Shown piece after piece: positions 2,657 to 32,466 of a DNA stretch of 32,837 bases. The position numbers were made by a program, and so were the translations under genes. The stretch's first letter is position 1, and each line of letters begins with the position of its first letter. The stretch comes from Chloroflexota bacterium (GTDB lineage Bacteria > Chloroflexota > Anaerolineae > Anaerolineales > Villigracilaceae): assembly GCA_005778035.1 (NCBI GenBank), contig SXKT01000051.1:1-32837 (forward strand), in the 5' to 3' direction. Below the pieces are notes generated by a model, which was not told where the DNA came from, did no database searches, and saw only the letters and a program-made list of their open reading frames with translations.

Positions 2657-2931
2657 AACTTCCTCCAAAATGTTTTGAATGTTGCAAATGGGTATTAAGT
2701 AAAAGTTATACAAAACGCCCTTTTGCATTAATAAAAGTTGTAATACTATAATTCCAGTGCTAAAAAACCAAAAGGTTTTAGGAAATACTTAATAGGGTTC
2801 AGAACAAATTGCTTGTTTATTAGGTTAAAATAATGGAACAGTTCTTGGCGGCGCGCCTGTTTTTTGGGCTCCGAAGCCATTTTGGCAACCTTGCCTTAAC
2901 CGCAGGCTATTCTTGAAATTGGAGGTGTCTC
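2657..2931. promoter_or_regulatory. Divergent intergenic region between aor and its likely regulator
   Basis: This AT-rich stretch must carry promoters for aor (minus) and for the regulator-moeA operon (plus). I could not find a pair of convincing -35/-10 boxes for either. Visible elements are a GGCAA-CC-TTGCC inverted repeat at 2884-2895, a weak hairpin with a bulge around 2760-2781, and Shine-Dalgarno sequences at both ends (GGAGGA for aor, GGAGGTG at 2921-2927 for the regulator). Confidence 0.5.
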
Positions 2932-3912: not shown

Positions 3913-3959
3913 CCAGCCACAGTGCAGTGGCTGTAACCCTATGGATCTAAGGACCAACG

Positions 3960-14315: not shown

Positions 14316-14332
14316 GGACCCAACGAATTCAA

Positions 14333-15984: not shown

Positions 15985-16018
15985 GTACGTACATATTAAT
16001 TATTTTTATACGTACATA
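15982..16018. promoter_or_regulatory. Twin palindromic operators of the GntR-family regulator
   Basis: TATGTACGTACATA (15982-15995) is a perfect 14-base palindrome overlapping the -10 and probable transcription start. A second copy with 12 of 14 matches lies at 16005-16018, its last base being the A of the regulator ATG. Their centres are 23 bases apart, about two helical turns. GT...AC palindromes are usual for GntR-family proteins, so autorepression is likely. Confidence 0.75.
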
Positions 16019-16752: not shown

Positions 16753-16766
16753 GAGTTACCGTAACC

Positions 16767-17609: not shown

Positions 17610-17621
17610 GGTGTTTCATGC

Positions 17622-17641
17622 CCTCCGGAACTGATCGGAGG
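17622..17641 (+). other. Small stem-loop between btpA-like and substrate-binding-protein genes
   Basis: CCTCCG (17622-17627) pairs with CGGAGG (17636-17641) over an 8-base loop in the 56-base gap. There is no U-tract. It may affect processing or stability; AAGGAG for the next gene lies shortly after it. Confidence 0.4.
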
Positions 17642-17665
17642 AACATTTAAAAAGGAGTAGAGTAG

Positions 17666-19114
17666 ATGAGGTCCAAACTGCAATTTCTGTTAGTAATGAT
17701 CTTGGTGGTATCCCAGGTTTTGGTTGCGTGCGCACCAGCAGCCCCTGCCACCGAAGTGCCGGCTGCTGAAGCTCCAGCAGCCAACGAGGCACCCGCAGCT
17801 GAAGCACCCGCAGCGGAAGCTCCCGCCGCCGCAGGTGTCGATTGGATGGCCTACCAAGGCACCACCCTAAACCTGTTGTTGATCTCTCACCCGTTCGTCG
17901 ATTCCTTGAAACCGCTTCTGCCTGAATTTGAGGCGAAGACCGGAATTAAGGTGAATCTTGAGGTATTGGCAGAACAACCTGGTTTTGAAAAACTGCTTTC
18001 CGACCTTTCCTCCGGTGCAGGTTCTTACGATGCCTTCATGACGGATCCTTTGCACAACTGGCAGTACTCCACCGCCGGTTGGGTCGAGCCGTTGGATGGT
18101 TACCTGTCTGACCCGACCAAGACCGATATTGAAACCTATGACCAGGCCGATTTCATGCCAGGTATTTGGAATGCCGGCCGTTGGACCCTCGAACCAATGC
18201 AAGGGATGGGAGAAGGACAAACCTGGGCTGTACCGATCAACTTTGAGAGCTACTTATTGGCTTACCGTCCTTCCATCCTCAAGGAAAAAGGCATTGCAGT
18301 CCCAACAACCTATGATGAGTACTATGAAGCTGCCAAAGCGTTGACCTTTGAAAAAGATGGCCAGAAGGTTTACGGAACCATCACCCGTTTTGACAAATAT
18401 TGGGATCTAACCTACCTGACATTCGGTACCATGTTGCAATCCTATGGTGCCGGCTTGTTGGATGGAGATGGCAATGTGGTGGTCTGTTCTCCCCAGTCCG
18501 TAGCAGCCACCGAGCTGTTTATCAAGACCATCAAAGACACCAGCCCCGAAGGCGCAGCCGCCTTCACTTGGTACGAAGCTCTTCAGGGTTTCGCCTCAGG
18601 GCAGTACGCAATGTCGCTCAATGAAGCTGATCTGTTCGCACCCACCTACGAGAATCCTTCTGAATCACAGATCTCGGAGGATGTTGGGTATGCACTGACC
18701 CCGCTTGGCCCTGACGGCCAACGCCTTGCAGGTGCCTGGGTTTGGGAAATGTCAATCAACAGCGCCTCCAAGAACAAGGATGCTGCCTGGCTTTTCCTGC
18801 AATGGCTTACCTCCAAAGATGTGATCACACGTACCAACATTGCCGGCAACATGAATCCTGTTCGGGCTTCCTCCTGGGAATCCCCCGAGTTGCTCGCCAT
18901 TGTTGAACAATGGGGTGAAACACCTGGCCAATACATTGAGGTTATGAAGGAAATGGGCACTGTTGCTGCTATCCGATTCCCACCCCACCCTGAATTGACC
19001 CGCGCGCTCGACCGTTGGGCTGAGGCTATTCAAACCTCTTACTTCGAAGACGGGAACGTTGAAGCCAACCTGTGCGCCGCTCAGGATGACATCAACAAGA
19101 TCCTCGGCAAGTAA
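17666..19114 (+). CDS. ABC transporter substrate-binding lipoprotein (sugar type, family 1)
   Basis: The 482-residue protein has a lipoprotein signal (VSQVLVAC, Cys22), an Ala/Pro/Glu linker (22-57), then a family-1 solute-binding fold (NLLLISHPFVDSLKPLLPEF, TGIKVNLEVL, DAFMTDPLHNWQYS, WAVPINFESYLLAYR, GQYAMSLNEAD, AGAWVWEMSINSASKNKDAA, AAWLFLQWLTS). It captures the substrate outside the membrane and hands it to the two permeases that follow. AAGGAG precedes ATG. Because BtpA, PfkB and an amidohydrolase share the operon, the ligand is probably a sugar or glycoside, but it cannot be named. Confidence 0.94.
   Translation: MRSKLQFLLVMILVVSQVLVACAPAAPATEVPAAEAPAANEAPAAEAPAAEAPAAAGVDWMAYQGTTLNLLLISHPFVDSLKPLLPEFEAKTGIKVNLEVLAEQPGFEKLLSDLSSGAGSYDAFMTDPLHNWQYSTAGWVEPLDGYLSDPTKTDIETYDQADFMPGIWNAGRWTLEPMQGMGEGQTWAVPINFESYLLAYRPSILKEKGIAVPTTYDEYYEAAKALTFEKDGQKVYGTITRFDKYWDLTYLTFGTMLQSYGAGLLDGDGNVVVCSPQSVAATELFIKTIKDTSPEGAAAFTWYEALQGFASGQYAMSLNEADLFAPTYENPSESQISEDVGYALTPLGPDGQRLAGAWVWEMSINSASKNKDAAWLFLQWLTSKDVITRTNIAGNMNPVRASSWESPELLAIVEQWGETPGQYIEVMKEMGTVAAIRFPPHPELTRALDRWAEAIQTSYFEDGNVEANLCAAQDDINKILGK
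17729..17836 (+). repeat. Low-complexity Ala/Pro/Glu linker coding repeat
   Basis: Repeats of the type EAPAA directly follow the lipidated Cys and form a flexible tether. The minus-strand binding protein carries a similar linker. Such tracts are prone to length change by replication slippage. Confidence 0.85.
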
Positions 19115-19129
19115 TATCATCTGTTATAA

Positions 19130-19160
19130 CACTGGGAGCGGCTTCTCCCCGCTCCCAGTG
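19130..19160 (+). promoter_or_regulatory. Perfect stem-loop between binding-protein and permease genes
   Basis: CACTGGGAGCGG (19130-19141) pairs perfectly with 19149-19160 over a 7-base loop. No U-tract follows, so it is more likely a stabilising 3'-end structure that keeps binding-protein mRNA more abundant than permease mRNA than a true terminator. Confidence 0.7.
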
Positions 19161-19196
19161 CAGGAACCTATCCTCATAGGAGCAAGGCCAGTAGTT

Positions 19197-20099
19197 ATGG
19201 AATCGCAACAAAAGAATAAACATAAATTGAACAGTGAGACACCCTACTATTGGATGTTCCTTCCCGCGCTGTTGTCGATCATTGGGGTAATGGTTCCATT
19301 CTATTATGGGGTTTACACCAGCCTCACCAACAATAAACTTTACAATCCGGTTGCCAAGTTTGTTTGGTTCCAAAATTACATCGACCTTTTTTCTGACAAG
19401 GATTTTTTGGTTTCACTTGTCCTGACAGTAGGCTACGCGTTCATGATTGTCGCAATCCAGATCCCGCTTGGTTTGCTGGTTGCCCAATTATTGGACCAAA
19501 CCACACCCTTCCGGGAGATCTTTCGCAGCATATTGGTCATGCCAATGCTCATCCCGCCGATCGTAGCCGGGTTGATGTGGAAAACCATGATGAATCCTGC
19601 CAGTGGTATCTATAACTGGCTGCTGAATTCCGTCGGCTTGCCCTCCTTTACCTGGCTCGCGGATATAAAAACTGCGCTTTTCTCAGTTGCGGTTATTGAC
19701 ACCTGGATCTCAATCCCATTCGTCGCCCTCATTCTTTTGGCTGGTTTGCAAAGTGTGCCGGTGGAGATCTTGGAAGCCGCCCGCGTGGATGGTGCCAACT
19801 CTTGGCAGATCTTTAGGAAAATCCAAGTACCCAACATCGGTCCTTACCTTATGCTTGTATTGCTTTTCCGGTTCTCAGACGCTCTCAAGGCGTATGATCT
19901 GATCTATCCGACGACCCGCGGTGGTCCCATCAACGCCACTCGTGTAATGAATGTCTCAGCTTATGAGGAGGTTTTCAAATGGTCCAGCATGGGAACCGCG
20001 ATGGCGATCATATTCGTGCTATGGCTGATCAGCTATTTTGTCAGCACCTTTCTGGCCAGAAAATGGCAACAGGCAGCTAACGACGTAAAGGGCATGTAA
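19197..20099 (+). CDS. ABC sugar permease, MalF-like
   Basis: The 300-residue inner-membrane protein has six predicted transmembrane segments, starting with PYYWMFLPALLSIIGVMVPF, and the EAA loop EILEAARVDGANSWQIFRKI that docks on the ATPase. ATG 19197 is chosen because upstream in-frame starts would overlap the binding-protein gene and the stem-loop; AGGAG lies 16 bases upstream, rather far. It pairs with the permease at 20106 to form the channel. No ATPase gene is in the operon. Confidence 0.93.
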   Translation: MESQQKNKHKLNSETPYYWMFLPALLSIIGVMVPFYYGVYTSLTNNKLYNPVAKFVWFQNYIDLFSDKDFLVSLVLTVGYAFMIVAIQIPLGLLVAQLLDQTTPFREIFRSILVMPMLIPPIVAGLMWKTMMNPASGIYNWLLNSVGLPSFTWLADIKTALFSVAVIDTWISIPFVALILLAGLQSVPVEILEAARVDGANSWQIFRKIQVPNIGPYLMLVLLFRFSDALKAYDLIYPTTRGGPINATRVMNVSAYEEVFKWSSMGTAMAIIFVLWLISYFVSTFLARKWQQAANDVKGM

Positions 20100-20105
20100 A
20101 CCATT

Positions 20106-20957
20106 ATGGCACAACGTATTCCCCGTATCCTCGTCATCCTCTTTGGTTATTTGGTGTTCTCCGTTTTCATCCTTTTCCCATTACTATGGATCTTCCTGAT
20201 GTCTATCAAGGACTTCAAAGACATCATCGCCTATCCCCCTGTATTCACCTTCACCCCTACCTTCGACAATTATCGTGCCATTATATTTGGTGAGGGCAGC
20301 ACTGGCCTCACTACTGGCATTTCCGATTACATGAAATTTTTGCGCAACTCAGTAATTATCTCGGTTGGTTCCGTAACCATCTCCGCCCTGATTGGCACTC
20401 CGGCCGCTTATGCGCTTTCGCGCTCCAACATCCGCGGTAGGGATACGATCTCGTTCACATTCCTTTCTTTCCGCTTCGCTCCTGAATTGGCCGTCATACT
20501 TCCTTTGTATGCAATCTACAAAAAGATCGGTCTGTACAATACCTACCATGGTTTGATCCTTGCCAACCAACTGATCACCCTTCCACTTACCATTTGGATC
20601 CTGATGAGCTTTTTTAAAGAGGTTCCGATGGAGATCGAGGAAGCTGCCAGGGTGGATGGCGCCAGCGTATGGCAAACCTTTTTTCATGTAGCCTTGCCGA
20701 TCATTCGTCCCGGAATAGCGAGCGCACTGATCATCTCCTTTATTTACAGCTGGAATAACCTGATCTTTGGCATGGTTTTGGGCGGCGCCGCCACCCAACC
20801 GGTCACTGTCGGGATCTTGCAAACCATGAACTTTGATCAAATCAAGTGGGGTTGGATGGCTGCCGCTGCAATGATATCAGCTGTCCCCGGAATGATCATT
20901 GCCTTGTATTTCCAAAGGCACTTGGTACGCGGGCTTACCATGGGAGCGCTGAAGTGA
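20106..20957 (+). CDS. ABC sugar permease, MalG-like
   Basis: The 283-residue inner-membrane protein has six predicted helices (VILFGYLVFSVFILFPLLW first) and the EAA loop EIEEAARVDGASVWQTFFHV. It starts six bases after the partner permease and its stop overlaps the GTG start of the PfkB-type kinase (GTGA). Together with 19197-20099 and 17666-19114 it makes a CUT1-type importer that must borrow an ATPase from elsewhere. Confidence 0.94.
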   Translation: MAQRIPRILVILFGYLVFSVFILFPLLWIFLMSIKDFKDIIAYPPVFTFTPTFDNYRAIIFGEGSTGLTTGISDYMKFLRNSVIISVGSVTISALIGTPAAYALSRSNIRGRDTISFTFLSFRFAPELAVILPLYAIYKKIGLYNTYHGLILANQLITLPLTIWILMSFFKEVPMEIEEAARVDGASVWQTFFHVALPIIRPGIASALIISFIYSWNNLIFGMVLGGAATQPVTVGILQTMNFDQIKWGWMAAAAMISAVPGMIIALYFQRHLVRGLTMGALK

Positions 20958-21895
20958 GTAATAAGTTCGATCTTTTATCAATCGGCGCTTGGGCGATTTA
21001 TGACCATCTTTACAAATTATCTATCTATCCACAAAATGGTGATACCGTCACACTCGATATGCCAATTGAAGCATTGGAACGTGTATATTACGGAGATTGT
21101 TCGGCAAACATCGCCGCAGTGGCTGCAAAACTTGGTGTTTCGTCTGCCTTGGCAATGGTCGTGGGTGAAGATTTTTCATCCAGCGGTTATAAGAAACACT
21201 TGAGCGGTTTGGGAGTGGATATTTCAGCAGTAGAAGTCAGGGTTGGCCAAAGATCTGGCCACAATTATTTATATTTTGATTCAAATGGCGACGGTTTTTG
21301 TATCTCCCACCAAGGAGTGGCAGCCGTGCAATCAAGCTGGGTGATTCCGGAGAATCAGATCCGTCAGGCAACATACGTTGTGATCAATGAGAAGTTTTCC
21401 GAATATACCCTCGCGAGTGCCCATTTAGCCAAGCAAAGCGGTGCCAATGTGGTACTCAATGGCATGGTGGCGAGCGCAGGAAACTTGGCGATTGAATTCA
21501 TCCAACTCGCGGACATCCTCTTTATCGCCGAGTCTGAGTTATCTAACCTGCTTACAATATTGAATCTAAGCTCACCAGTGCAATTGGTTCAAAAATACCT
21601 AAAAGTGGTATTTGCGACCCAAGGGAAAAAGGGTAGCTTGGTTTACACCCCTAATGCGGTAATACCTGTTGCACCGGTATTGGTGGAAGATGTTGTGGAC
21701 ACAACAGGTGCGGGGGATGGCTTCGCGGCAGGAACATTGGCCGCCCTGATCAAGGGATTCTCGCCGAGCGAGGCAGCCCAAATAGGCGCTACTGTTTCAA
21801 GTTTTGTTATCCAAGCGTGGGGCTGCCAAACCAACCTGCCAACCTGGGATGAAATGATGCAACGATTGAATAAATACAAAGAACAGGACCGATGA
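20954..21895 (+). CDS. PfkB/ribokinase-family carbohydrate kinase
   Basis: The 313-residue protein starts at GTG 20954 overlapping the permease stop; upstream in-frame codons lie inside the permease gene and read as non-native sequence. The fold is shown by YYGDCSANIAAVAAKLG near the substrate site, AMVVGEDFSSSGY, LVEDVVDTTGAGDGFAAGTL (anion hole and catalytic Asp) and a C-terminal helix. The usual GGxxAN motif is altered to GDCSAN. It should phosphorylate an imported sugar or nucleoside-like compound at a hydroxymethyl group with ATP. The exact substrate is unknown; operon context links it to BtpA-like and amidohydrolase steps. Confidence 0.92.
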   Translation: MSNKFDLLSIGAWAIYDHLYKLSIYPQNGDTVTLDMPIEALERVYYGDCSANIAAVAAKLGVSSALAMVVGEDFSSSGYKKHLSGLGVDISAVEVRVGQRSGHNYLYFDSNGDGFCISHQGVAAVQSSWVIPENQIRQATYVVINEKFSEYTLASAHLAKQSGANVVLNGMVASAGNLAIEFIQLADILFIAESELSNLLTILNLSSPVQLVQKYLKVVFATQGKKGSLVYTPNAVIPVAPVLVEDVVDTTGAGDGFAAGTLAALIKGFSPSEAAQIGATVSSFVIQAWGCQTNLPTWDEMMQRLNKYKEQDR

Positions 21896-21896
21896 T

Positions 21897-22679
21897 ATGA
21901 AAGTAATCGATACACACATCCATTATGGAACCGACCCAAATGTCGCCTCCTCCACTTGTGTTCCTTACCTTATCACAGGCCAGCCAGATTCGGTCATCCG
22001 CATGCTGGATGAGGAAAATGCCAGCCACGGCGTTCTATTCCCCCATGACCGCGTAATGAGCCCGCCTTGGGACGCTGATTATGACAAAGCCAACCAGCAG
22101 ATTGGCGAGGCCGTATTGAAATATCCGGATCGGATCGCAGGCTTGGCCCGGATCAACCCCACCTTTGGCGCGGAACATACCCAGAAGTTGCTCCGCAAAT
22201 ATGTGACCGAGTGGGGTTGCCGTGGCGTAAAACTGGTGGCCGGTTACGATTTCTACCGCCCCAATGACCTGAAGGTGGTCGGTCCGATGCTGGATATCTG
22301 CCAGGAATATGATCTGACCGTCCTATTCCACAGCGGCGATGCCCCGCGGGACCTGCCTTACCTGCAGGCACAGGCGGCCAAAGCATACCCCAACGTGCGG
22401 TTTGTACTTGCCCATATCGGCATGCACACCTACTTGCACGAAGCTATATTGGCCTGCAAAGAATATGAGAATGTCAATGTAGACATGGCCCAGGCATGGC
22501 CATACGACATCAGGATCTTTCTTAACCACGTCGGAATGGACCGCCTGACGTATGGATCCGATACCCCCTACCAATCCCCCGAGGTCGAACAGTTGAAACT
22601 CAAAGTGATCGGATTGACCGAAGCGGAGCAGGAGAAGGTTTTCTCCCTGAACGCACGCCGCATTTGGCGAATAGCCTGA
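21897..22679 (+). CDS. Amidohydrolase-family (amidohydrolase-2) metal-dependent hydrolase
   Basis: The 260-residue TIM-barrel protein has metal-binding motifs in order: DTHIHYG at residues 4-10, the Lys strand GVKLVAGYDF, LFHSGDAP, LAHIGMHTY and YGSDTPYQSP with the catalytic Asp. This matches the amidohydrolase-2 family, which includes lactonases, decarboxylases and uncharacterised hydrolases. It starts one base after the kinase stop. The likely role is hydrolysis of a lactone or C-N bond in the pathway served by this operon. There is no signal peptide, so it is cytosolic. Confidence 0.9.
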   Translation: MKVIDTHIHYGTDPNVASSTCVPYLITGQPDSVIRMLDEENASHGVLFPHDRVMSPPWDADYDKANQQIGEAVLKYPDRIAGLARINPTFGAEHTQKLLRKYVTEWGCRGVKLVAGYDFYRPNDLKVVGPMLDICQEYDLTVLFHSGDAPRDLPYLQAQAAKAYPNVRFVLAHIGMHTYLHEAILACKEYENVNVDMAQAWPYDIRIFLNHVGMDRLTYGSDTPYQSPEVEQLKLKVIGLTEAEQEKVFSLNARRIWRIA

Positions 22680-22773: not shown

Positions 22774-23811
22774 TTATTGTGTTTCTGTCACCTTTTTGAT
22801 CGTCCTTGGCTGCTCGGTGTCAAACCCTTTTGTTCTAGTAAGGTGGTAGGCAAACAATTGGGCGGGAAGGATCGCAACCATCGGGGATAACCATTCTGGC
22901 ACATCGGTTGGGATGCTGAGTGGAACCTGGGCAAGCGATAATGCCGAATCGTGGTTGGAAATTACTACCAGTTCCGCCGATATTTCTGACCGAAGCCGCC
23001 GAAGCATTTCCAGCATGGAATCGAACACTTTGCCTTGGGGGGCTACGGCAAAAACAGGGTAACCGCTTTCAACCATCGCGATCGGTCCATGGGCGAAGTC
23101 CGCGGAGGAGTAAGGCTCTGCGATAATGTAGGTCAATTCCTTTAATTTCAGCGCCCATTCAAAGGCGGTCGCGTAGTTGTAGCCACGGCCCAGAACCACT
23201 GTTTGGCTTATGTAACGGTACCGCTGAACAGCCTGGGCGATCAATTGATCCTGCTTCAGGGAGGTTCGCATCCACCCTGGCAGGGACGCCAATGATTGCC
23301 AGTGATGCTCCTTCTTTGCAAGCGCTGAAGAGAGCATTGAAACGGCCATTAATTCTGTGGTGTAGGTTTTCGTGGCGGCTACCGCTTTTTCATCCCCAGC
23401 TTGCAAGTCAATGACGAAATCTGAAGCTGCCGCCAAAGGCGAGGATGGCTCATTGGTAATAGACAAAGTCAGGCAACCCTGCCGCCGGCCTTCCAACAAT
23501 ACATTGACGATGTCTGGAGATTTGCCGGATTGGGATATGCCGACCACCAAGGCATTTTTTAGAACAGGCGGTTGGTTGTAATAGGTAAACAGCGATGGTG
23601 TTGCCAGAGCCACGGGCAGGCCGTTTATGGCGCCAAACAAGTAATTGGCGTAGCGGCCGGCATTATCTGATGTTCCACGTGCGGCGAGAAAAACATATTG
23701 GATATCGCGTTTCCTGATCTCGGTTGCGATGTGCTCAACCTGGATCCGTTGAGCTGAAAGCAGGTTTTCTATCCGATCGGGTTGTTCCAAGATCTCAGAA
23801 TACAGCGACAT
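22774..23811 (-). CDS. SIS-domain aminosugar isomerase/deaminase (GlmS C-terminal-like)
   Basis: The 345-residue cytosolic protein is two tandem SIS domains without a glutaminase domain. Motifs are ARGTSDNA (44-51), GISQSGKSPD (91-100), EKAVAATKTYTTEL, GRGYNYATAFEWALKLKELT and ADFAHGP (237-243), ending with the GlmS-like DTEQPRTIKKVT. Such stand-alone proteins act as glucosamine-6-phosphate deaminases (archaeal GlmD), AgaS-type deaminases/isomerases or FrlB-type deglycases. The start ATG overlaps the stop of the GH3 gene (TAATG), so it is coupled to it. In this operon the best guess is conversion of glucosamine 6-phosphate to fructose 6-phosphate. Confidence 0.92.
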   Translation of the reverse strand: MSLYSEILEQPDRIENLLSAQRIQVEHIATEIRKRDIQYVFLAARGTSDNAGRYANYLFGAINGLPVALATPSLFTYYNQPPVLKNALVVGISQSGKSPDIVNVLLEGRRQGCLTLSITNEPSSPLAAASDFVIDLQAGDEKAVAATKTYTTELMAVSMLSSALAKKEHHWQSLASLPGWMRTSLKQDQLIAQAVQRYRYISQTVVLGRGYNYATAFEWALKLKELTYIIAEPYSSADFAHGPIAMVESGYPVFAVAPQGKVFDSMLEMLRRLRSEISAELVVISNHDSALSLAQVPLSIPTDVPEWLSPMVAILPAQLFAYHLTRTKGFDTEQPRTIKKVTETQ

Positions 23812-25403
23812 TAGCTTTGCTCCAATGGGTACAAGCCAGGGATCCCGACCGGTAACCGTCCTGTCATCTTCAATCCTCCGAACAATGCCTTTGCCACCGC
23901 CCGCATCGATGGTTCCAGAATGCTATAGGTGCAAATATAGGTTGGCGCCAAAGGAAAATTCGCCAGGTCGTATGGCAGCCTCATGGCGATCACGATCACT
24001 TCTTTGCCGGTCGCAAGCAACCTGCGCACAAATTCTGCCTGGCTCTCTTCAGAATAAGCGTTGATGGTACCCATCACGATCAGATCATATCCCTGAACTT
24101 GTTCCAGCACCTGTGAGGCCTGAACCAGACTCGGCGCGTAGGGGATCCTGATCTCATCTACATGGCTGTGATACGCTCGGATAGAATCGGCAAGCATGGG
24201 CCGGATGTAGGAGGACGTGTCGGCCGGGGTAAGGTCTTCAGGGATGGGGACGATGACCGCGACGCGCTTTTCTTTATCCAGCGCGAGCGGCAATAGATGC
24301 CGATCATCGCGGACCAAGGTCAGAGACCGTTCAGCGATTTCATCCGCGACGCGCTGATGTTCGGCAGATTGGATGACCGATAAATCCTGGGTGGTCTGAT
24401 TTTCGACAAGCCATGCCTTTAGCAATTGAATACGTTGTTGCGCAGATTCCAACTCCGCATTGGATAAGCCGCCGCTTTGGGCCGCGTTTAGCAGGGCATC
24501 ATAAGCCCGCTTTTTATCCAGCGGGTCCGATGTCATCAACAGTAAGTCGACACCGGCTTGGGCGGCGCGAAGCACGTCCTCGCCCAATGCCTCCCCCTGG
24601 CGTATGGCACGCATGTCCATCGCGTCGGTGATCACCACTCCATCATAGCCAAGTTCGCCGCGTAATAACCCATCGATTACTTTGCGGGAAAGTGTTGCCG
24701 GCGGGGCATTTTCGCCATCCAATGCTGTAATGCCCAAATGAGAGATCATTACCATTTTGGGGTTGGCTTTTAGGGCCGCCCTGAACGGTACCAATTCGAC
24801 CTGGTTCAGCCTTTCAGGCGAGTGGGGAAGCATCGACAAGCCATGGTGTGTATCGCTGGTGGTATCGCCATGGCCGGGGAAGTGTTTTACCGTAGCCGCC
24901 ACCCCCTGAGATTGTATTCCTTCGATCATGGCGGCAGCCATTTCTCCTACCTTGGTTGGGTCGCCCCCAAAGGAGCGCACCCCAACCACCGGGTTCATCG
25001 GATTGATATTTACATCCGCGCAGGGTGCGTAATCCACATTGATGCCGAGGGCTGCCATTTCACGGCCAAGAACCTCACCTGCCTTTTTGGCCAATTCAAC
25101 AGACCGTGTCGCGCCAATGGCCATGTTGCCCGGCAACGGTGTGCCATCGCCAAAGGCCATCAGTTGGCCGCCCTCCTGGTCTGTGGCAATGATCAATGGA
25201 GGAAGCCCCAATTGCCTTGCTAAATCTTGCAGGGCAGAAGTAAACGCCTTTACTTGGGCGGCATTTTCAATATTGAGGCTGCGAAAAAGAGTTATGCCCC
25301 CAGGTTGGTAGGATTTGAAGGCGTCGATGATTTCGTCAGTAATTGGCCCCTTGGTGTGAAAAGCAAAGGAAAGCCTTTGGCCGATGGTCTTTTGTAGATC
25401 CAC
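23811..25403 (-). CDS. GH3 beta-N-acetylglucosaminidase (NagZ-like)
   Basis: The 530-residue enzyme starts at GTG 25403, one base after the permease stop, with AAAGGT upstream. The GH3 barrel contains LIIATDQEGGQ, the NagZ signature KHFPGHGDTTSDTHHG (173-188, with the His/Asp acid-base pair) and the nucleophile Asp260 in GVVITDAMDM. A second domain of about 190 residues follows, so it resembles the longer Gram-positive NagZ rather than the short E. coli form. There is no signal peptide, so it acts on imported disaccharides, releasing N-acetylglucosamine (from chitobiose or muropeptide-type substrates). Confidence 0.92.
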   Translation of the reverse strand: MDLQKTIGQRLSFAFHTKGPITDEIIDAFKSYQPGGITLFRSLNIENAAQVKAFTSALQDLARQLGLPPLIIATDQEGGQLMAFGDGTPLPGNMAIGATRSVELAKKAGEVLGREMAALGINVDYAPCADVNINPMNPVVGVRSFGGDPTKVGEMAAAMIEGIQSQGVAATVKHFPGHGDTTSDTHHGLSMLPHSPERLNQVELVPFRAALKANPKMVMISHLGITALDGENAPPATLSRKVIDGLLRGELGYDGVVITDAMDMRAIRQGEALGEDVLRAAQAGVDLLLMTSDPLDKKRAYDALLNAAQSGGLSNAELESAQQRIQLLKAWLVENQTTQDLSVIQSAEHQRVADEIAERSLTLVRDDRHLLPLALDKEKRVAVIVPIPEDLTPADTSSYIRPMLADSIRAYHSHVDEIRIPYAPSLVQASQVLEQVQGYDLIVMGTINAYSEESQAEFVRRLLATGKEVIVIAMRLPYDLANFPLAPTYICTYSILEPSMRAVAKALFGGLKMTGRLPVGIPGLYPLEQS

Positions 25404-25404
25404 T

Positions 25405-26247
25405 TTAACCTTTCAATCCTGAAACAACAACGCTCTCGAGGATATAACGCTGGGCAAAGAAAAAAACGACGATCAACGGCGCTGTCGTCAGCACCGCGGC
25501 TGTCATGATGGTGGGCCAAGGTTGAACGGTTTGGTTGATGTTGTACAAAGTGGAAACATAAACCGGCAAGGTATACAAGTTGACGGTTTGCAGATACATC
25601 AGCGGAGAAAGCAGGTTGTTCCACATGCCAACAAAAAGGAAGGTGGCGACAGTAGCCATTGGGGCCTTGATCAGAGGCATAATGATCTCCCACCAAATTT
25701 GGATATGGCTGGCGCCATCCACAAAGGCTGATTCATCCAATTCTTTTGGAATTTGCGACATGGATTGCCTGAGCAGGAAGATCATTGCCGCACCACCGGC
25801 AAAATAGCCCGGGATAATGAGCGGGTTAAATGTGCCGATCCAATCCAGCTTGTTGAAGAACACATATTGCGGCACGATCAACGCCTGCGGTGGGATCATC
25901 ATGGTGGATAACATGAGGAAGAAAACCACATTGCGCCCCGGCCAATTTACCCGGCTAAAAGCATACGAAACCGCGGCGATGGATATGAGGGTGCCAACCA
26001 GGGCCAGTGTTACATAAAAAACCGAGTTGAAATAGGAGCGGAGGAAATCCTGATTTTGAAAAATGGCAATATACGCCTCCAGGGTAGGTTCGCGGGGGAT
26101 CCATACAACGCCGGGTGAGTTGGTTTCTGAAACCGTTTTAAAGGAAGAAGAGATCATCCAGAATAGGGGAAAACTCATCATTACCGTTGCGCCGGTCAGG
26201 ATGGTATAAAGCAGGATACTTTTAAGAACAGGCAGGATCTTGTTCAT
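25405..26247 (-). CDS. ABC sugar permease, MalG-like (amino-sugar operon)
   Basis: The 280-residue membrane protein has six predicted helices (ILLYTILTGATVMMSFPLFW first) and the EAA loop ELDESAFVDGASHIQIWWEI. The usual EAA reads ESA. The ATG is preceded by AGGAG in the 9-base gap after the partner permease. It forms the translocation channel with 26257-27411. Confidence 0.94.
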   Translation of the reverse strand: MNKILPVLKSILLYTILTGATVMMSFPLFWMISSSFKTVSETNSPGVVWIPREPTLEAYIAIFQNQDFLRSYFNSVFYVTLALVGTLISIAAVSYAFSRVNWPGRNVVFFLMLSTMMIPPQALIVPQYVFFNKLDWIGTFNPLIIPGYFAGGAAMIFLLRQSMSQIPKELDESAFVDGASHIQIWWEIIMPLIKAPMATVATFLFVGMWNNLLSPLMYLQTVNLYTLPVYVSTLYNINQTVQPWPTIMTAAVLTTAPLIVVFFFAQRYILESVVVSGLKG

Positions 26248-26256
26248 TGCACTCTC

Positions 26257-27411
26257 CTAATAAATGTCGTACGTAACCCATTTGTCTTGCAGGCGGAATT
26301 GGATCACGGTGACGACCATGATGATTGCAAGGATGACCCAGGAAATTGCAGAACCATAGCCAATCTCAAAATGGCTGAAACTCTTCTGCCAGAGGTAATA
26401 GACCATCGAAATCGTTGATGATACGATCGGTTGGTTATCGCGATACAGAACAAATATTGGTTCAAATATCTGTAAGGCACCGATCATGCCAACAACCAGA
26501 TTATAAAAAATATACGGGGTAAGCAAAGGAAATGAGATGCGCCAAAACCGTTGCCAAGGAGAAGCACCATCCATTTGGGCAGCTTCATAAAGTTCTTTGG
26601 GGATGTTGTTGAGGCCTGAAAGGAAGATCAACATCATTGTTCCGCATCCCCACAACATCAGCAGGATCACAGACATTTTCGTCCAAAGCGGGCTCTGCAC
26701 CCACAATGGAACCCGATTATCAGCCGGAAAACCAGCCTCAAGGACTTTCAACATCAGGTTGAATTTTCCGGTATTAAGACCCAAGAAGAAAGCCGCACTG
26801 ACCTCCTGGGCATAAATCACGGCCCTGTTCAACCAATTAAATGGTGGAAAGGACACCGAGAGGGAACGGATCAATTGGTTAATGATACCGGTTCCGGTAT
26901 TCAGCATAAGGCGCCAACACAACAAAACTGCGGTGTTAAAGCCAAGAATGACCGGCAAATAAAAAGCCATTCTAAAAACGCGCTCGCCGCGCATCTTTTG
27001 GTTCAACAATACTGCCAAAAACAAAGCAAGGGCCACCTGCAATGGCAAGCCGATCACGGTCAGGTACAAGGTATTGATGATCGAAGAGCGGAAGCTGTCA
27101 TCCTTTAGGATCACTGTTTGGTAATTTTCGAGACCGACCCAGCTGGTTGGCACACCAGAAGCGATGCGGTAATTTGTAAAACTCCAATAGAGCGAAAAAC
27201 CAAGCGGAACGATCACAAAAATAAGAAAGCCTACGATCCAAGGGGCGGCAAAAAAGTAACCAGCGAAGGCGTTATCCTGCGTTTTTGGAGACCCGCCGGA
27301 AATCCTTGCAATGGTTTTCGCTACATAGCCCAAACCATAACTACACGAGATGATGAACACGATGGTTAATGCCGCAAAAAAAAGAACATTCAAATATGGA
27401 TTTTCAATCAT
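26257..27411 (-). CDS. ABC sugar permease, MalF-like with extra N-terminal helix
   Basis: The 384-residue membrane protein is longer than the usual roughly 300. An additional N-terminal helix (LNVLFFAALTIVFIISCSYG) and a linker precede the conserved start FAAPWIVGFLIFVIVPLGFS. About 60 residues are inserted around 195-255 (from LSVSFPPFNWLNRAV to VPLWVQSPLWTK), probably an external loop. The EAA loop is ELYEAAQMDGASPWQRFWRI. AGAGGTGA precedes ATG. It is separated from the binding-protein gene by a terminator-like hairpin. Confidence 0.93.
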   Translation of the reverse strand: MIENPYLNVLFFAALTIVFIISCSYGLGYVAKTIARISGGSPKTQDNAFAGYFFAAPWIVGFLIFVIVPLGFSLYWSFTNYRIASGVPTSWVGLENYQTVILKDDSFRSSIINTLYLTVIGLPLQVALALFLAVLLNQKMRGERVFRMAFYLPVILGFNTAVLLCWRLMLNTGTGIINQLIRSLSVSFPPFNWLNRAVIYAQEVSAAFFLGLNTGKFNLMLKVLEAGFPADNRVPLWVQSPLWTKMSVILLMLWGCGTMMLIFLSGLNNIPKELYEAAQMDGASPWQRFWRISFPLLTPYIFYNLVVGMIGALQIFEPIFVLYRDNQPIVSSTISMVYYLWQKSFSHFEIGYGSAISWVILAIIMVVTVIQFRLQDKWVTYDIY

Positions 27412-27443
27412 GGCGGTTCACCTCTTGGCCTACCTTTGCTGGT

Positions 27444-27480
27444 AATAAAAAAGTTGGGCAGGGTTTTACCCCTGCCCAAC
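27444..27480 (-). terminator. Attenuating terminator between binding-protein and permease genes
   Basis: On the minus strand GTTGGGCAGGG (27470-27480) pairs perfectly with its complement (27453-27463) over a 6-base loop and is followed by TTTTTTATT (27444-27452). It is a canonical Rho-independent terminator only 12 bases after the binding-protein stop and 33 before the permease start, so partial readthrough is expected. Confidence 0.85.
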
Positions 27481-27491
27481 CATAACTGGAA

Positions 27492-28862
27492 TTACTGGCC
27501 GAGAGCGGCTTTGTATTCTTCCTGGATCTTGGCGTTGACTTCTTCAACAGTGAGTTCTTCGGTGATCAACTTGCCGAGGGCGTCTTGCATGATGGTGGAA
27601 AGCTTGGCAGCTTCTTTGATGCCAGCGAAACCAACACCGTACTTGGAGGCCAATTCAGCTTCGCGTTGCAGCTGGGCAGATTCAGTCACATAGCCGAACT
27701 GGGAATCGTTACGGGCAGGGATCAGGCCCATGGTCTCGTTCCACTTGTTGTTGGCTTCCTTGCTAAAGGCAAGCTTAAGCCATTCGGCAGCGAGTTCTTT
27801 GTTGGTGGAATATTCGGGCACAGCGAGCCAGTCGTTGAAAGCAAGGACAACAGGCTTGCTATTGGGGAAGTTGGCGGGGTCGCCATAGAAGGGCTCGATG
27901 GAAACATTGTCCCAGATCGGGCGGTCGAAGGCAGGAGCAGCCCAACCGGAGTGAGCCAGACAGACAGCGCCATTGCTCTTGCCAGTGGCATCATCAACAT
28001 CGATGACGGAACCCTGGCCAGCGGGCAGCGCGCCAACAGCGTTTACAGCATCGCCATAGGTAGCCTTGCGCATGTCGAGCAGGAACTGGGTAGCGGCCAA
28101 AGCTTCGGGGGAATCGAAATTGGGAGCGCCATCGGCATTGTACAGTTGGCCACCGAGGGAGTAGTACACCAACAACCACCATTGCCAATCAGCCATCGAG
28201 CCAGCGTCCACCGGGACGAGAGCCTGCTGCGACAAGGAATTGGTGGCGGCATCGATCACAGAAGCCTGGGCGGCAAAAGCCTTCCAATCGGCAAAATTCT
28301 GCGGGGTACCGGTGGTCCAGCCAGCGGTTTCCATTAGGTCGGTGCGGCAGAATACGTAGCGGGGGGCGGTGAAGATCGGCAGACCGCGCAGGGAACCTTC
28401 GTACTTGGCGTTTTCGAGGGCGGGGCCAAAGTTCTTGATGTCAGCCCAGGCAGCTTCGCCGAGCAGGGAATCCATATTGGCGAGGTTTTCACCATAGAGG
28501 GTGTTCATTTCGGAGCCCAGGTTGATGATATCGGGGCCTTCGCCAGCGGCAAAGAAACCACTAAAGGTAGTATCCCAACCGGACCAAGTGCCTTCGGTGA
28601 TCTCTACTGTCACACCAGGGTGGGCAGCTTCAAAGGCGGTGTTGATGTCGCTCTTGAGCCAGGCAATAGTGTCTGGGGTATAATCCAAAAGGTATACCTT
28701 AAGGGTAACCGGTTCAGCCGCAGGGGCTTCCGTTGCAGCGGGGGCCTCTGTAGCGGCGGGCGCTTCAGCCGCGGGGGCTTCGGTGGCGGGGGCAGCACAA
28801 GCAGACATGACAAGGCTTGCCAAAATAAGTACAGATAACAAAGCGAACAGTTTCTTTTGCAT
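27492..28862 (-). CDS. ABC transporter substrate-binding lipoprotein (amino-sugar operon)
   Basis: The 456-residue protein has lipobox VMSAC (Cys22), an Ala/Pro/Glu/Thr linker (22-51) and a family-1 binding fold (LKVYLLDYTPDTIAWLKSDI, HPGVTVEITEGTWSGWDTTF, GPDIINLGSEM, GLPIFTAPRYVFCRTDLM, LAAEWLKLAFSKEANNKW, NETMGLIPARNDS). AAAGGAG precedes ATG. With a deacetylase, GH3 and SIS protein in the operon, the ligand is probably an N-acetylglucosamine-containing oligosaccharide; this is inferred. The gene is flanked on both sides by terminator-like hairpins, which should set its expression apart from neighbours. Confidence 0.93.
   Translation of the reverse strand: MQKKLFALLSVLILASLVMSACAAPATEAPAAEAPAATEAPAATEAPAAEPVTLKVYLLDYTPDTIAWLKSDINTAFEAAHPGVTVEITEGTWSGWDTTFSGFFAAGEGPDIINLGSEMNTLYGENLANMDSLLGEAAWADIKNFGPALENAKYEGSLRGLPIFTAPRYVFCRTDLMETAGWTTGTPQNFADWKAFAAQASVIDAATNSLSQQALVPVDAGSMADWQWWLLVYYSLGGQLYNADGAPNFDSPEALAATQFLLDMRKATYGDAVNAVGALPAGQGSVIDVDDATGKSNGAVCLAHSGWAAPAFDRPIWDNVSIEPFYGDPANFPNSKPVVLAFNDWLAVPEYSTNKELAAEWLKLAFSKEANNKWNETMGLIPARNDSQFGYVTESAQLQREAELASKYGVGFAGIKEAAKLSTIMQDALGKLITEELTVEEVNAKIQEEYKAALGQ
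28710..28799 (-). repeat. Low-complexity Ala/Pro/Glu/Thr linker coding repeat
   Basis: Tandem TEAPAA/AEAPAA units follow the lipidated Cys of the binding protein, comparable to the tract at 17729-17836. They form an unstructured tether. Confidence 0.85.
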
Positions 28863-28961
28863 TTACTTCTCCTTTAATTATTTATCAAACAGATCAGTTC
28901 ACACACTTTCTTGGTACTATTTTGCCTGCGCGGTTTCTCCTTCCAATAATTGGATTCAGGT

Positions 28962-28984
28962 AAAAAGGATGATCAACTCATCCT
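28962..28984 (-). terminator. Short terminator-like hairpin overlapping the deacetylase stop codon
   Basis: On the minus strand AGGATGA (28978-28984) pairs with TCATCCT (28966-28972) over a 5-base loop that contains the TGA stop, and is followed by four further Ts. Stem and U-run are short, so it is probably leaky. A ribosome at the stop would cover it. Confidence 0.5.
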
Positions 28985-29821
28985 GGTAACTCGTTCTTTT
29001 ATGTCTTGCGTCAACCGGTGGATGTAAGTTTGCACAAACTCAAATGGGTCGAGCGATGCATCCATCATTAGCGCGGTCAGGTCCATCGCGTACGAAAGCC
29101 CCGCCGCGTTATCCACCTCGTGAGATTCAAAGTACGTAGCGTTGGCCCGCCTCCGGCCCATCGAGGCCAGGTCGTAACGTTTTCCGCCAACGATCTGGGA
29201 ATCGAATACCCCCAATAGCGCAAACTGCAGGTTTTCGTGTTGCGATAACGGCATGACCACCTTGTCTGAATCGACCAACCAATCCAGACTGCGCCAAACC
29301 TCACATCCCAAAACTTTTTCCGGGCGTTCCTCAGGGCGCAATTGCCTGAGAGCTTCAATCACCCTAAGAGCGACCCCAACATGCGTATCATGTTTATCGG
29401 CCAGGTTATGGGTGTAAACCAGCTTGGGTTTTGTTGCACGCAAGATCTTTACTATGTCTTCTACGGGTTCCGGCCTTTTGGCGTCTTTTATCACCTTGCT
29501 CGGAATATCCAGCATGATCTGGGCGGCGAACTCGCCGACCACCGCAGCCTTGGATTGCTCCTTGAAACGCACCAAACGCATCTCTTCGTCTGTATAGTGC
29601 TGATAAATGCTGTTCCGCGGCGAACCACGGCCATCGGTTACGACAACACCTGTGAACCACTTATCCTTTTGCTGAAAACATTCAAGGATCGGTTGCGCCG
29701 CCATGATCTCGATATCATCCTGATGGGCGGCAAGGCACAGGTGGGTGGTCCGGGAGAGAGCTTTCTCCTCGGGTTCGTTATCCGGAATGTATATCGCGGT
29801 TGCGGGCTGATGAAAAATCAT
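28973..29821 (-). CDS. PIG-L (LmbE-like) N-acetylglucosamine deacetylase
   Basis: The 282-residue protein has the zinc motif LAAHQDDIEIMA (His33, Asp35/36) and the distal HDTHVGVALRVIEAL with its metal-binding His, the pattern of PIG-L/LmbE deacetylases such as MshB, BshB and archaeal diacetylchitobiose deacetylase (Dac). The family removes acetyl from N-acetylglucosaminides. AAGAGAAAG precedes ATG 29821, 42 bases after the ASKHA gene. Its place between a ROK-like protein and an ABC importer, with GH3 and SIS downstream, suggests that it deacetylates imported GlcNAc or a GlcNAc disaccharide. A thiol-biosynthesis role is less likely because no ligase or glycosyltransferase is nearby. Confidence 0.9.
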   Translation of the reverse strand: MIFHQPATAIYIPDNEPEEKALSRTTHLCLAAHQDDIEIMAAQPILECFQQKDKWFTGVVVTDGRGSPRNSIYQHYTDEEMRLVRFKEQSKAAVVGEFAAQIMLDIPSKVIKDAKRPEPVEDIVKILRATKPKLVYTHNLADKHDTHVGVALRVIEALRQLRPEERPEKVLGCEVWRSLDWLVDSDKVVMPLSQHENLQFALLGVFDSQIVGGKRYDLASMGRRRANATYFESHEVDNAAGLSYAMDLTALMMDASLDPFEFVQTYIHRLTQDIKERVTRMS

Positions 29822-29863
29822 ATCTTTCTCTTGGTCGCTCAGGATAATTTGCTGGTCAATAAA

Positions 29864-31246
29864 TCAGTTTTGTACCACCGGCAAGCTTGCCGCGGCAACA
29901 GACTGCCCTACCCTGCGGATCTTTTCATCCGGCAAGTGCAGTTTTATTTCTGTCAAGTATTCAGGGAACTCGGCTGTAAAAACCTTCAACGCGCCCTCTA
30001 TCAGCAGATCACCTCCACGGCCTGATGTGCACCGGCCAAGGATGAGCACATGCTTGATGTTGTAATACTGGGCATAATGCGCAATGCCGTAACCAAGGTA
30101 GATACCCATGGTTTGCCAGATCTTAGTCGCGCCTTCTTCTCCGGCCTCCAACCTGGCTTGTACAAATTTAAGCCTTTCGGCATCTGTCACTTCGCCCGGG
30201 ATCTGAATCCCTGCCAGCGGTGCCAAGCGGAATACACATTGCTGTGAGAAATATGACGCGCCACAACCCAGATCGCCAGACCATTCATCGATCGGCGCGC
30301 TTGGGTTAAGATCGATCGGCGCGAATGCCAATTCGTTTAGCCAACCCATAATGTGGCCATCCATATTCACATAACCGGCAGCCTCGCTGGAACCAAGCGC
30401 GATACCCAAAATTCCGTTCTCGCCGATGGCCATTGAACCTGCAAGCGCGGTTACATCGCCATCATTGATCACCTCGAGGGGTACACCCATCTCTTCGCGA
30501 ATTCGCAGGAACAAATTTTTGATCGCCGCAAATTTTTCTTCAGGGATACCGCGGAACAGCGAACCGACCATTGGGCGATTGTCTACATAGATCCCGGCTG
30601 AACTTCCACCGATGGCATCCAACCGGGGCATTTTGCTGGCGGCGGTTTTTATGGCTGCCATCAGTTCACGATAATGGTATTCAGGGTCGCTATTCTTCTT
30701 CGGCTCCCAAATCACCTCCTCGCTATAGATCGCCTCGCCATCTACCACTGCGCTCACTTTTCGGTCCGAGGCGCCCAGGTCGAATCCGATCCGGCATCCT
30801 GCCAAATTCCTGCCGAGCTGTTTTCCGGTTTCGCGCGCAACCGGCACATCCTCCGCGGCGCAAATGATGATCGAAAATTCTTTTTCATAAACTTGTTTGC
30901 CCATAAAGGAATGGTCAAATTTACGGGGGCCGTCCTTGGCGTACACAGTTCGGATGTACTCCCCAATTGGGCTGGGCGCGCCAATATATACGGTATGCCC
31001 GCCGCGTTGCCATAGCAAAAATTTGACGATCCTCTCAACATAGGCAAAGTTGGCATCAAACTGAGGGTGGCCTTCTGGCAAAACATGGGTTTCATAGCGG
31101 GTAAATTCGCCAGCCGCCCTTTCCAGGCCGATCACAGCTTTCACCCCAAATGGCCGCGCGGTCTGCAAAAAGTGTTTTTCAGCCAGCACAGATGGGCGAA
31201 ATTCTTTATCTAAGGGTGGGGTAACTTTTGGTTCGATGAGAATCAT
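29864..31246 (-). CDS. ROK-like ASKHA-fold protein with N-terminal extension, possible sugar kinase
   Basis: The 460-residue protein starts at ATG 31246, four bases after the repressor stop, with AGGA upstream; a farther start at 31288 would overlap that gene. The first roughly 150 residues match nothing I know. The rest has actin-type kinase motifs: GFDLGASDRKVSAVV (154-168, phosphate-1), VINDGDVTALAGS (260-272, with Asp262 where ROK kinases have the catalytic Asp), GIALGSSEAAGYV (phosphate-2) and VLILGRCTSGRGGD (adenosine-type). The ROK zinc motif (GHxxx...CxCGxxGC) is absent; GDLGCGASYF stands nearby instead. It could phosphorylate the amino sugar released by its neighbours. It might also be a non-catalytic sensor. 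Confidence 0.75.
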   Translation of the reverse strand: MILIEPKVTPPLDKEFRPSVLAEKHFLQTARPFGVKAVIGLERAAGEFTRYETHVLPEGHPQFDANFAYVERIVKFLLWQRGGHTVYIGAPSPIGEYIRTVYAKDGPRKFDHSFMGKQVYEKEFSIIICAAEDVPVARETGKQLGRNLAGCRIGFDLGASDRKVSAVVDGEAIYSEEVIWEPKKNSDPEYHYRELMAAIKTAASKMPRLDAIGGSSAGIYVDNRPMVGSLFRGIPEEKFAAIKNLFLRIREEMGVPLEVINDGDVTALAGSMAIGENGILGIALGSSEAAGYVNMDGHIMGWLNELAFAPIDLNPSAPIDEWSGDLGCGASYFSQQCVFRLAPLAGIQIPGEVTDAERLKFVQARLEAGEEGATKIWQTMGIYLGYGIAHYAQYYNIKHVLILGRCTSGRGGDLLIEGALKVFTAEFPEYLTEIKLHLPDEKIRRVGQSVAAASLPVVQN

Positions 31247-31250
31247 TGGT

Positions 31251-32402
31251 TTAGGAATCCTGTTTAAACAAGAGGGAATAATTTTCAAGCAGTAAAAAGG
31301 CGGATGCTCCTAAAATACAGCCGCGAAAATCGAGGGTGCCAAGTTCCAGTTTTGTATTGTCTGATAGCCTTGCCAATGCCGCATTGCGCATTGAGTTGTT
31401 CACCTCGGCCAGCCAGGAGGTACCAAAACGGGTCATGTCTCCCGTTATGATGACCTTTTGGATATTTAATGTGCCGATCAGGTTCGCCAGCGAGATGCCC
31501 AGGTAATGGGCGGTGTTCTTAACCACGCGCAAGGTTTTCTCATCTCCGGCTTCGTAGGCGGCTTTGGCTTCATCCAGAGAATGCATGCCAAGCTGGCGCA
31601 AAACAGCCCGGGCGCTGGAAATTGTTTCAAGGCAGCCATTCTTGCCGCACCGGCAAAGCTCGCCATTCTCTTGTACCACCACATGGCCGATCTCGCCTGC
31701 CCCGCCGCCGTCTCCCTGGAACAAGCGGCCGTTGATGAAAATCCCCGAACCAATGCCGTGTTTCACATTGACCACGATCAGGTTCTCATCGTGTGCATGC
31801 CGGCCGCCATAAACAAATTCGCCAATGGCGGTTGCCTGGCTATCGTTGAGGATCGATACCGGCAGATGGTATTTTTCTTGCAATAATTTTCCCAATGGCA
31901 GGTCTTGCCAATCGAGATTGACTGCGTTGATGACCAGGCCCGCCTTGGTGTTTACCAAACCCGGCGCGCCAACCCCTATCCCCACGATGGGGGTAATATT
32001 TTTCTCCACCAGATCATCCAGGATCTGGTATATAAGCTCGAGGGCTTTTTTACCATCGTCATCGGGTACGGGCAGCTCTACCAACGCTTTAATTTCACCG
32101 CGAAGGTTGACGATCGCGCCGACAAACTTATCCTGCGCCAGATTCAAACCGACCATATACCTGGAATCGGCAACGATATTGAGCATGATCGGGTTTTTTC
32201 CCCCGATTGAAACACCCTTGCCAACCTCCTGAACCAAACCCTCTTCCAACAAACCATTCACCACATCAGATACTGTGGCCCTGGTAAGGTTGGTCAGCCG
32301 CGCAACCTCGGCACGGCTGATCGACTCGTGGCCGAAAATTGCCCTGAGAATGAAATCTCGGTTGTGCAGTTTTGTCTGCTGATGGGTGGCTTTCTTCATC
32401 AA
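31251..32402 (-). CDS. ROK-family transcriptional repressor (NagC/XylR type)
   Basis: The 383-residue protein has an N-terminal winged HTH (about 12-62; SRAEVARLTNLTRATVSDVV) and a ROK domain with LNDSQATAIGE (Asp187) and the zinc site His240, Cys250, Cys252, Cys257 (GHVVVQENGELCRCGKNGC). The phosphate-binding loop is GLNLAQDK instead of DxGGT, consistent with a sugar-sensing repressor without kinase activity. ATG 32399 is an alternative start. It is the first gene of the minus-strand operon and lies downstream of a strong promoter with a palindrome at the start of transcription, so it probably represses its own operon until an amino-sugar ligand binds. Confidence 0.94.
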   Translation of the reverse strand: MMKKATHQQTKLHNRDFILRAIFGHESISRAEVARLTNLTRATVSDVVNGLLEEGLVQEVGKGVSIGGKNPIMLNIVADSRYMVGLNLAQDKFVGAIVNLRGEIKALVELPVPDDDGKKALELIYQILDDLVEKNITPIVGIGVGAPGLVNTKAGLVINAVNLDWQDLPLGKLLQEKYHLPVSILNDSQATAIGEFVYGGRHAHDENLIVVNVKHGIGSGIFINGRLFQGDGGGAGEIGHVVVQENGELCRCGKNGCLETISSARAVLRQLGMHSLDEAKAAYEAGDEKTLRVVKNTAHYLGISLANLIGTLNIQKVIITGDMTRFGTSWLAEVNNSMRNAALARLSDNTKLELGTLDFRGCILGASAFLLLENYSLLFKQDS

Positions 32403-32451
32403 GGTATTTGCCTTATTGGACGATGGCGAGTGAATACGGTCATCTTTGTAA

Positions 32452-32466
32452 GTTTATTGAACAAAC
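32452..32466 (-). promoter_or_regulatory. Probable ROK repressor operator
   Basis: GTTTATT-G-AACAAAC is an inverted repeat (6 of 7 positions symmetric) that lies just after the -10 box, over the predicted transcription start. AT-rich GTTTRTT...AACAAAC arms are typical of ROK/XylR-family sites. Autoregulation is inferred. Confidence 0.65.

Follow-up and report, generated by a model that had tools for sequence, protein, structure and literature searches.

PIG-L deacetylase and NagA genes interchange beside a ROK-like sugar kinase gene in amino-sugar operons of Anaerolineae

Eight genes on the minus strand of contig SXKT01000051.1 (positions 22774–32402), from a Chloroflexota bacterium of the Villigracilaceae (assembly GCA_005778035.1), make up an amino-sugar operon in which a PIG-L-type deacetylase gene follows that of a ROK-like kinase; the whole stretch analysed, 32,837 nt, is referred to below as the window. 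In our reading, the operon serves chitobiose or other N-acetylglucosamine (GlcNAc) oligosaccharides, sugar phosphorylation comes first, and the PIG-L protein is probably a non-orthologous replacement of NagA. Directly established are the set of genes, the mutually exclusive occurrence of PIG-L and NagA next to a single kinase family, and the intact catalytic motifs.

Interchange of PIG-L and NagA beside the kinase

All eight genes were recovered by open reading frame calling, in the order ROK regulator, kinase, PIG-L deacetylase, binding protein and two permeases of an ATP-binding cassette (ABC) importer, glycoside hydrolase of family GH3, and SIS protein. Intergenic gaps, in gene order, are 4, 42, 110, 80, 9, 1 and -1 bp, a near-gapless spacing that makes a single operon very likely. 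Gene calling and family scans agree with the membership given in a preliminary description of this DNA, and its proposal of an amino-sugar role with an unusual pairing of PIG-L and an ASKHA protein (the kinase) is likewise supported.

The comparison set comprised 298 genomes of the class Anaerolineae. Of these, 61 have the kinase, 51 have the PIG-L orthologue and 40 have both (odds ratio 39, p = 3e-24). The kinase gene is followed by PIG-L in 34 loci, mostly directly, and by NagA in its stead in 11; no locus has both (Fisher p ~1e-5 for partner exclusion, kinship ignored). Ten of the 11 kinase-adjacent NagA proteins, at 296–344 bits, exceed the equivalog cut-off of 225.65 bits. The order kinase-NagA-SIS is found in loci L045, L052, L054, L055, L056, L076 and L083, in several of them with a ROK regulator in front, and the arrangements ROK-kinase-NagA-SIS (L056, L083, L045) and ROK-kinase-PIG-L-...-SIS (L033, L119) follow one common layout. 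PIG-L and NagA occupy the same slot in an otherwise identical operon, and the conservation of gene order that the preliminary description proposed to check is found both in this layout and in the recurrence of the full operon in a relative of the same family (G027). On a tree of 56 kinase proteins the partner switches five times by parsimony, at least two of these switches being forced by well-supported branches. All catalytic motifs of the kinase are identical with either partner, and a search for alignment columns separating PIG-L-linked from NagA-linked kinases returned none.

NagA deacetylates GlcNAc 6-phosphate (GlcNAc-6-P), and a kinase that feeds it must therefore phosphorylate GlcNAc. 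Since the motifs of the kinase are unchanged when its partner is PIG-L, PIG-L is most simply taken to receive GlcNAc-6-P too, and conversion of GlcNAc to GlcNAc-6-P is the most likely reaction of the kinase. The preliminary description had placed deacetylation before phosphorylation, as in the archaeal Dac/GlmD route; the 11 relatives in which the kinase pairs with NagA in the PIG-L slot, with an unchanged kinase active site, speak against that order.

The distribution of NagA across genomes points in the same direction. In profile searches of the window's own assembly (1.63 Mb, 64% complete), nagA (TIGR00221, cut-off 225.65 bits) gave only a 24-bit partial match, elsewhere in the assembly, and nagB (TIGR00502) gave none. 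As this assembly is incomplete, relatives carry more weight: G027, a 99% complete genome in one contig, carries the full operon as well and yields no nagA or nagB match above cut-off, and NagA was not found in four further PIG-L-positive genomes that are 99% complete (G111, G164, G271 and G289). The absence of NagA and NagB claimed in the preliminary description therefore stands for matches above cut-off in the window's assembly and in G027; it has to be qualified for the deaminase, as the SIS protein is NagB-II-like (see below). Over the whole class, NagA (E<1e-30) is absent from 33 of the 51 PIG-L-positive genomes and from 71 of the 247 others (p = 3e-6), and is present in 17 of the 21 genomes that have the kinase and lack PIG-L. 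The four kinase-positive genomes with neither deacetylase are accounted for by a 74% complete assembly, fragmentary kinase matches or a short contig. Strict genome-wide exclusion of NagA by PIG-L was considered and rejected, as 18 of the 51 PIG-L-positive genomes hold both; exclusion is confined to the kinase locus.

Predicted enzymes and order of steps

The kinase (29864–31246, minus strand), proposed to be a GlcNAc 6-kinase, starts at the ATG at 31246, with an alternative TTG possible at 31288, and carries an extra N-terminal domain of ~148 residues. It matches no Pfam or NCBIfam model, the PF00480 gathering score not being reached, and no PDB entry was matched at E 0.01 when the kinase alignment served as the profile, so that its placement rests on fold comparison. 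In the AlphaFold model (predicted local distance difference test, pLDDT, 91.6) residues 149–460 match ROK kinases with Z scores of 23–25 over ~280 residues. Human N-acetylmannosamine (ManNAc) kinase (Z 25.4), glucokinase (Z 24.1) and Plesiomonas GlcNAc kinase (Z 23.9) are all close, and differences of less than 1–2 in Z among these matches are not readable as sugar specificity. The phosphate loop (D156-G158-S160-K163) and catalytic N261-D262 are invariant in the family alignment. An invariant phenylalanine, F308, takes the position of the classical ROK sugar-site histidine, and none of the zinc cysteines of the GH...CxCGxxGCxE signature is present in the alignment; we therefore name the protein ROK-like only, the model being that of a ROK fold and the sugar site differing from the classical one. 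An Actinobacterial glucosamine (GlcN) kinase (PMC6520443) was considered as a relative and rejected: it is a maltokinase paralogue adjoining a SIS gene and belongs to another family.

The PIG-L/LmbE-type protein (28973–29821, minus strand; PF02585, E=5e-16), the proposed GlcNAc-6-P deacetylase in place of NagA, scores 59.7 bits against a gathering score of 28.2 and has the AHxDD...H..H motif. As to class, it matches only PIG-L/BshB-type deacetylase models in Pfam and NCBIfam, and not the NagA amidohydrolase model (TIGR00221, 225.65 bits). Metal ligands H33, D36 and H147, the base D35, H144 and the substrate-binding R85 are invariant in ~110 sequences, and the catalytic machinery is by this alignment intact; the roles of these residues follow from BshB, in which R85 corresponds to Arg53 (PMC4101496). 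BshB/BC1534, of the LmbE family, is the closest solved fold (Z 21.8, with Dac at 19.3) and has the same metal and catalytic motif. It differs in its substrate, GlcNAc-malate in bacillithiol synthesis, in having Arg109 where the window protein has K143, and in lacking a family-specific GGKRYDLA...GRRR segment that lies outside the reach of BshB/BC1534 alignments. In this loop K214, R215, R223 and R224 are essentially invariant across the ~110 sequences from several phyla, and these four basic residues, which would fit an anionic 6-phosphate substrate, are a lead to its identity. NF002557, a glucosamine-6-phosphate-deaminase-like model of 653 positions, weakly matches the PIG-L protein with its C-terminal part (E=1.4e-4), which we count as support for PIG-L in the NagA role. 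No description of a PIG-L GlcNAc-6-P deacetylase was found in the open-access literature, which is weak evidence of novelty.

The predicted cytosolic GH3 protein (23811–25403, minus strand; PF00933, E=4e-83) is of the NagZ/Nag3 type. Its best PDB match is the GH3 β-N-acetylglucosaminidase 6k5j (E=9e-92), it carries the KHFPGHGDTTSDTH and VVITDAMDM motifs, and by family it is predicted to be a β-N-acetylglucosaminidase, a phosphorylase mode being less likely. NagZ-type GH3 enzymes work on acetylated sugars and are expected to require the 2-acetamido group of the residue cleaved, and deacetylation is therefore expected after hydrolysis.

The last gene encodes a standalone SIS/GlmS-isomerase-like protein (22774–23811, minus strand; PF01380), for which we propose a NagB-II-type deaminase of glucosamine 6-phosphate (GlcN-6-P). 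It scores 236–245 bits with GlmS models of NCBIfam, 230 with NagB-II (NF046059, equivalog cut-off 430) and 60 with GlmD (NF041128, cut-off 580), so it is not GlmD. Aligned to E. coli GlmS, K485, E488, H504 and K603 match identical residues, the catalytic Lys, Glu and His and the C-terminal Lys being kept. Since GlmS and NagB-II scores exceed that of GlmD and in relatives full-length GlmS is encoded by another gene elsewhere in the genome, the protein is best called a NagB-II-like deaminase lying outside the equivalog cut-off.

Taken in sequence, these assignments would have the ABC importer take in a GlcNAc disaccharide, from which the GH3 enzyme would free GlcNAc in the cytosol. The ROK-like kinase would then form GlcNAc-6-P with ATP, PIG-L, as a counterpart of NagA, would strip the acetyl group to give GlcN-6-P, and the SIS protein would convert this to fructose 6-phosphate (Fru-6-P) and ammonia. 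The ROK protein presumably holds the operon repressed until an inducer is present.

Spread of the pair and alternative readings

Beyond the class, a genome scan gave more than 500 kinase relatives, of which the best 80 were kept, partly from the same genomes as the class set. Among these best 80, PIG-L is nearby in 62, NagA adjoins in 6, and none has both. The kinase and PIG-L genes form an isolated pair among unrelated neighbours, with no consistently linked glycosidase, in Hydrogenedentota, Armatimonadota, Acidobacteriota and Aminicenantes, which suggests a self-contained module from GlcNAc to GlcN-6-P that could also feed cell-wall synthesis. We lean, by a narrow measure, towards a broader view in which this kinase family, matched by no Pfam or NCBIfam model, and the PIG-L subfamily form a portable two-gene module conserved in at least five phyla. 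Acting on GlcNAc-6-P, PIG-L would be another, unrelated means of carrying out the NagA step in part of the seemingly nagA-less bacteria.

Several observations weigh against NagA replacement with phosphorylation first. Eleven PIG-L-positive genomes of the class have no kinase orthologue. NagA is present elsewhere in 15 of the 40 genomes with both kinase and PIG-L, and NagA or a distant NagA-like protein occurs in most genomes of other phyla that have the pair; as many of these hold it elsewhere in the genome, PIG-L outside Chloroflexota is not simply filling a gap left by NagA. The basic loop of PIG-L is poorly modelled (pLDDT <50 at 214–239), leaving the phosphate site putative, and the closest folds, BshB/BC1534 and Dac, act on GlcNAc compounds without a 6-phosphate. 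The roles of the kinase and the PIG-L subfamily are, moreover, predictions, and were the kinase to accept GlcN as well as GlcNAc, it would suit both partners and either order of steps.

The substrates of BshB and Dac also favour the monosaccharide order of the preliminary description, in which GH3 frees GlcNAc, PIG-L converts it to GlcN, which the ASKHA protein phosphorylates as a glucosamine kinase, and the SIS protein deaminates GlcN-6-P. The kinase-PIG-L pair is, in addition, the widespread arrangement across several phyla, so that GlcN could be the original substrate, and F308 in place of the ROK histidine may mean an unusual kinase specificity. We nevertheless consider this order unlikely: the same kinase, with its motifs unchanged, pairs with NagA in 11 loci, and a change of kinase substrate would be needed at each of the 2–5 swaps. 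No such change is needed if the kinase takes both GlcN and GlcNAc and PIG-L takes GlcNAc with or without a 6-phosphate, in no fixed order. A sugar site unlike that of classical ROK proteins would agree with such promiscuity, but the loop residues of PIG-L, invariant over several phyla, suggest one defined ligand, and we regard this explanation as improbable.

A further alternative is a Dac-like disaccharide route, in which PIG-L would deacetylate the non-reducing GlcNAc of chitobiose and a glycosidase would then yield GlcN and GlcNAc. Pyrococcus Dac is the top Foldseek match of the PIG-L model, though BshB is slightly the closer by Z score. The operon has no GlmA-type exo-glucosaminidase, and chitobiose deacetylated at the non-reducing end is not an expected substrate of its NagZ-type GH3, so the archaeal-like, deacetylate-first order of the preliminary description is not supported. 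The isolated pairs without a consistently linked glycosidase also count against this route, which leaves the NagA interchange unexplained; we consider it very improbable. Least credible is an operon mainly for peptidoglycan salvage in which the kinase and PIG-L have a different amino sugar as substrate (ManNAc, N-acetylgalactosamine, or derivatives of N-acetylmuramic acid (MurNAc) such as products of GlcNAc-anhydro-MurNAc). In its favour, ManNAc kinase gives the best kinase Z score, nearly level with other ROK proteins, and NagZ-type GH3 enzymes act on muropeptides. Against it, NagA partners of the kinase score above the cut-off for GlcNAc-6-P deacetylase, the SIS protein resembles GlmS and NagB-II, and the operon encodes no etherase, epimerase or amidase.

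Among known systems, the ROK regulator ChiR of Thermotoga maritima controls chiEFG, cbsA and nagAB and responds to chitobiose (PMC3750489). In predicted gene content the window operon is closest to this plan; in each, a single operon unites a ROK regulator and an ABC importer with a chitobiose hydrolase and a deaminase of GlcN-6-P. Of the ChiR-type components (ROK, ABC, hydrolase, nagA and nagB) the window has all but nagA, with PIG-L in its place; Thermotoga has NagA, and the window operon has in addition the ROK-like kinase without a family model. The proposed path from GlcNAc through GlcNAc-6-P and GlcN-6-P to Fru-6-P, with a GlmS-like NagB-II, is the same as that of NagK, NagA and NagB-II (e.g. 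in Shewanella), except that the NagA step is given to PIG-L and that the kinase belongs to a separate subfamily of ROK-like proteins. The archaeal Dac/GlmA/GlmD system of Thermococcus and Pyrococcus also has a PIG-L-fold deacetylase and a SIS-fold deaminase; there, however, Dac uses unphosphorylated chitobiose and GlmA frees GlcN, whereas the window has GH3 for GlmA, a NagB-II/GlmS-like SIS protein for GlmD, and deacetylation probably after phosphorylation.

If the replacement of NagA is correct, it would fill an amino-sugar gap in uncultured Anaerolineae and in several other phyla annotated as missing nagA. It would also tell what two protein families do, a widespread PIG-L subfamily and a kinase family that lacks a model, and would be a clear example of a textbook pathway in which one enzyme has given way to a non-orthologous one. 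The proposal is directly testable in a cultured strain, Anaerolinea thermolimosa IMO-1, which has a regulator-kinase-PIG-L-importer cluster and no NagA above cut-off.

Regulator, importer and neighbouring genes

The ROK-family transcriptional regulator (31251–32402, minus strand, TTG start) is NagC/ChiR-like, with matches to PF00480 (E=3e-55) and to winged helix-turn-helix families of Pfam; against the NagC model of NCBIfam it scores 185 bits, under the cut-off of 650. On its 5' side, at 32444–32462 (minus strand), lies GTTCAATAAACTTACAAAG, a candidate ROK operator half-site and a lead only, the 3' half of which recurs in a full palindrome, TTTGTAAGTTCAATAAACTTACAAA, 5' of the orthologous regulator gene in L140; L121 and L141 have palindromes that resemble it. 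In the close relatives L110, L111, L114, L115 and L119 a palindrome, AAATTTAGTCT..(G/A)(A/C)CTAAATTT, is kept 130–200 bp 5' of the ROK gene; it was looked for in the window and not found. A second palindrome, around TTTGTAAGT...ACTTACAAA, is closer to the ROK gene in L121, L140 and L141, and both could be ROK operators.

The importer genes, all on the minus strand, encode a substrate-binding lipoprotein of the SBP_bac_1 family (27492–28862; PF01547, E=4e-19), which matches the NgcE model for GlcNAc/chitobiose weakly (32 bits, cut-off 400), and two BPD_transp_1 permeases, A (26257–27411) and B (25405–26247), both PF00528.

Where PIG-L occurs without the kinase in the genome, its gene adjoins a SIS gene in L091 (G260) and directly precedes a GH3 gene in L092 (G032), L099 (G140) and L100 (G198); another kinase may take over in these four. 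In the two closest relatives the SIS gene is followed by a conserved gene for an ATP-grasp-like protein, by eye of the D-Ala-D-Ala ligase type (L032, 16082–17050; L033, 17970–18935).

A second sugar operon lies on the opposite strand of the window (16018–22679, plus strand), with a GntR-like regulator (by eye) and, from family scans, a BtpA/SgcQ-family protein, a binding protein, two permeases, a PfkB-type kinase and an Amidohydro_2 protein; BtpA beside a sugar importer and kinase suggests a further, uncharacterised sugar pathway. At 827–7180 an aldehyde ferredoxin oxidoreductase gene (by eye) is followed on the opposite strand by two MoeA-like genes, one of them fused to a substrate-binding-protein-like domain. 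Two similar lipoprotein-like genes of metallophosphoesterase type (by eye) stand in tandem at 10483–13573, an apparent duplication, and are followed by a two-component system at 13632–15676.

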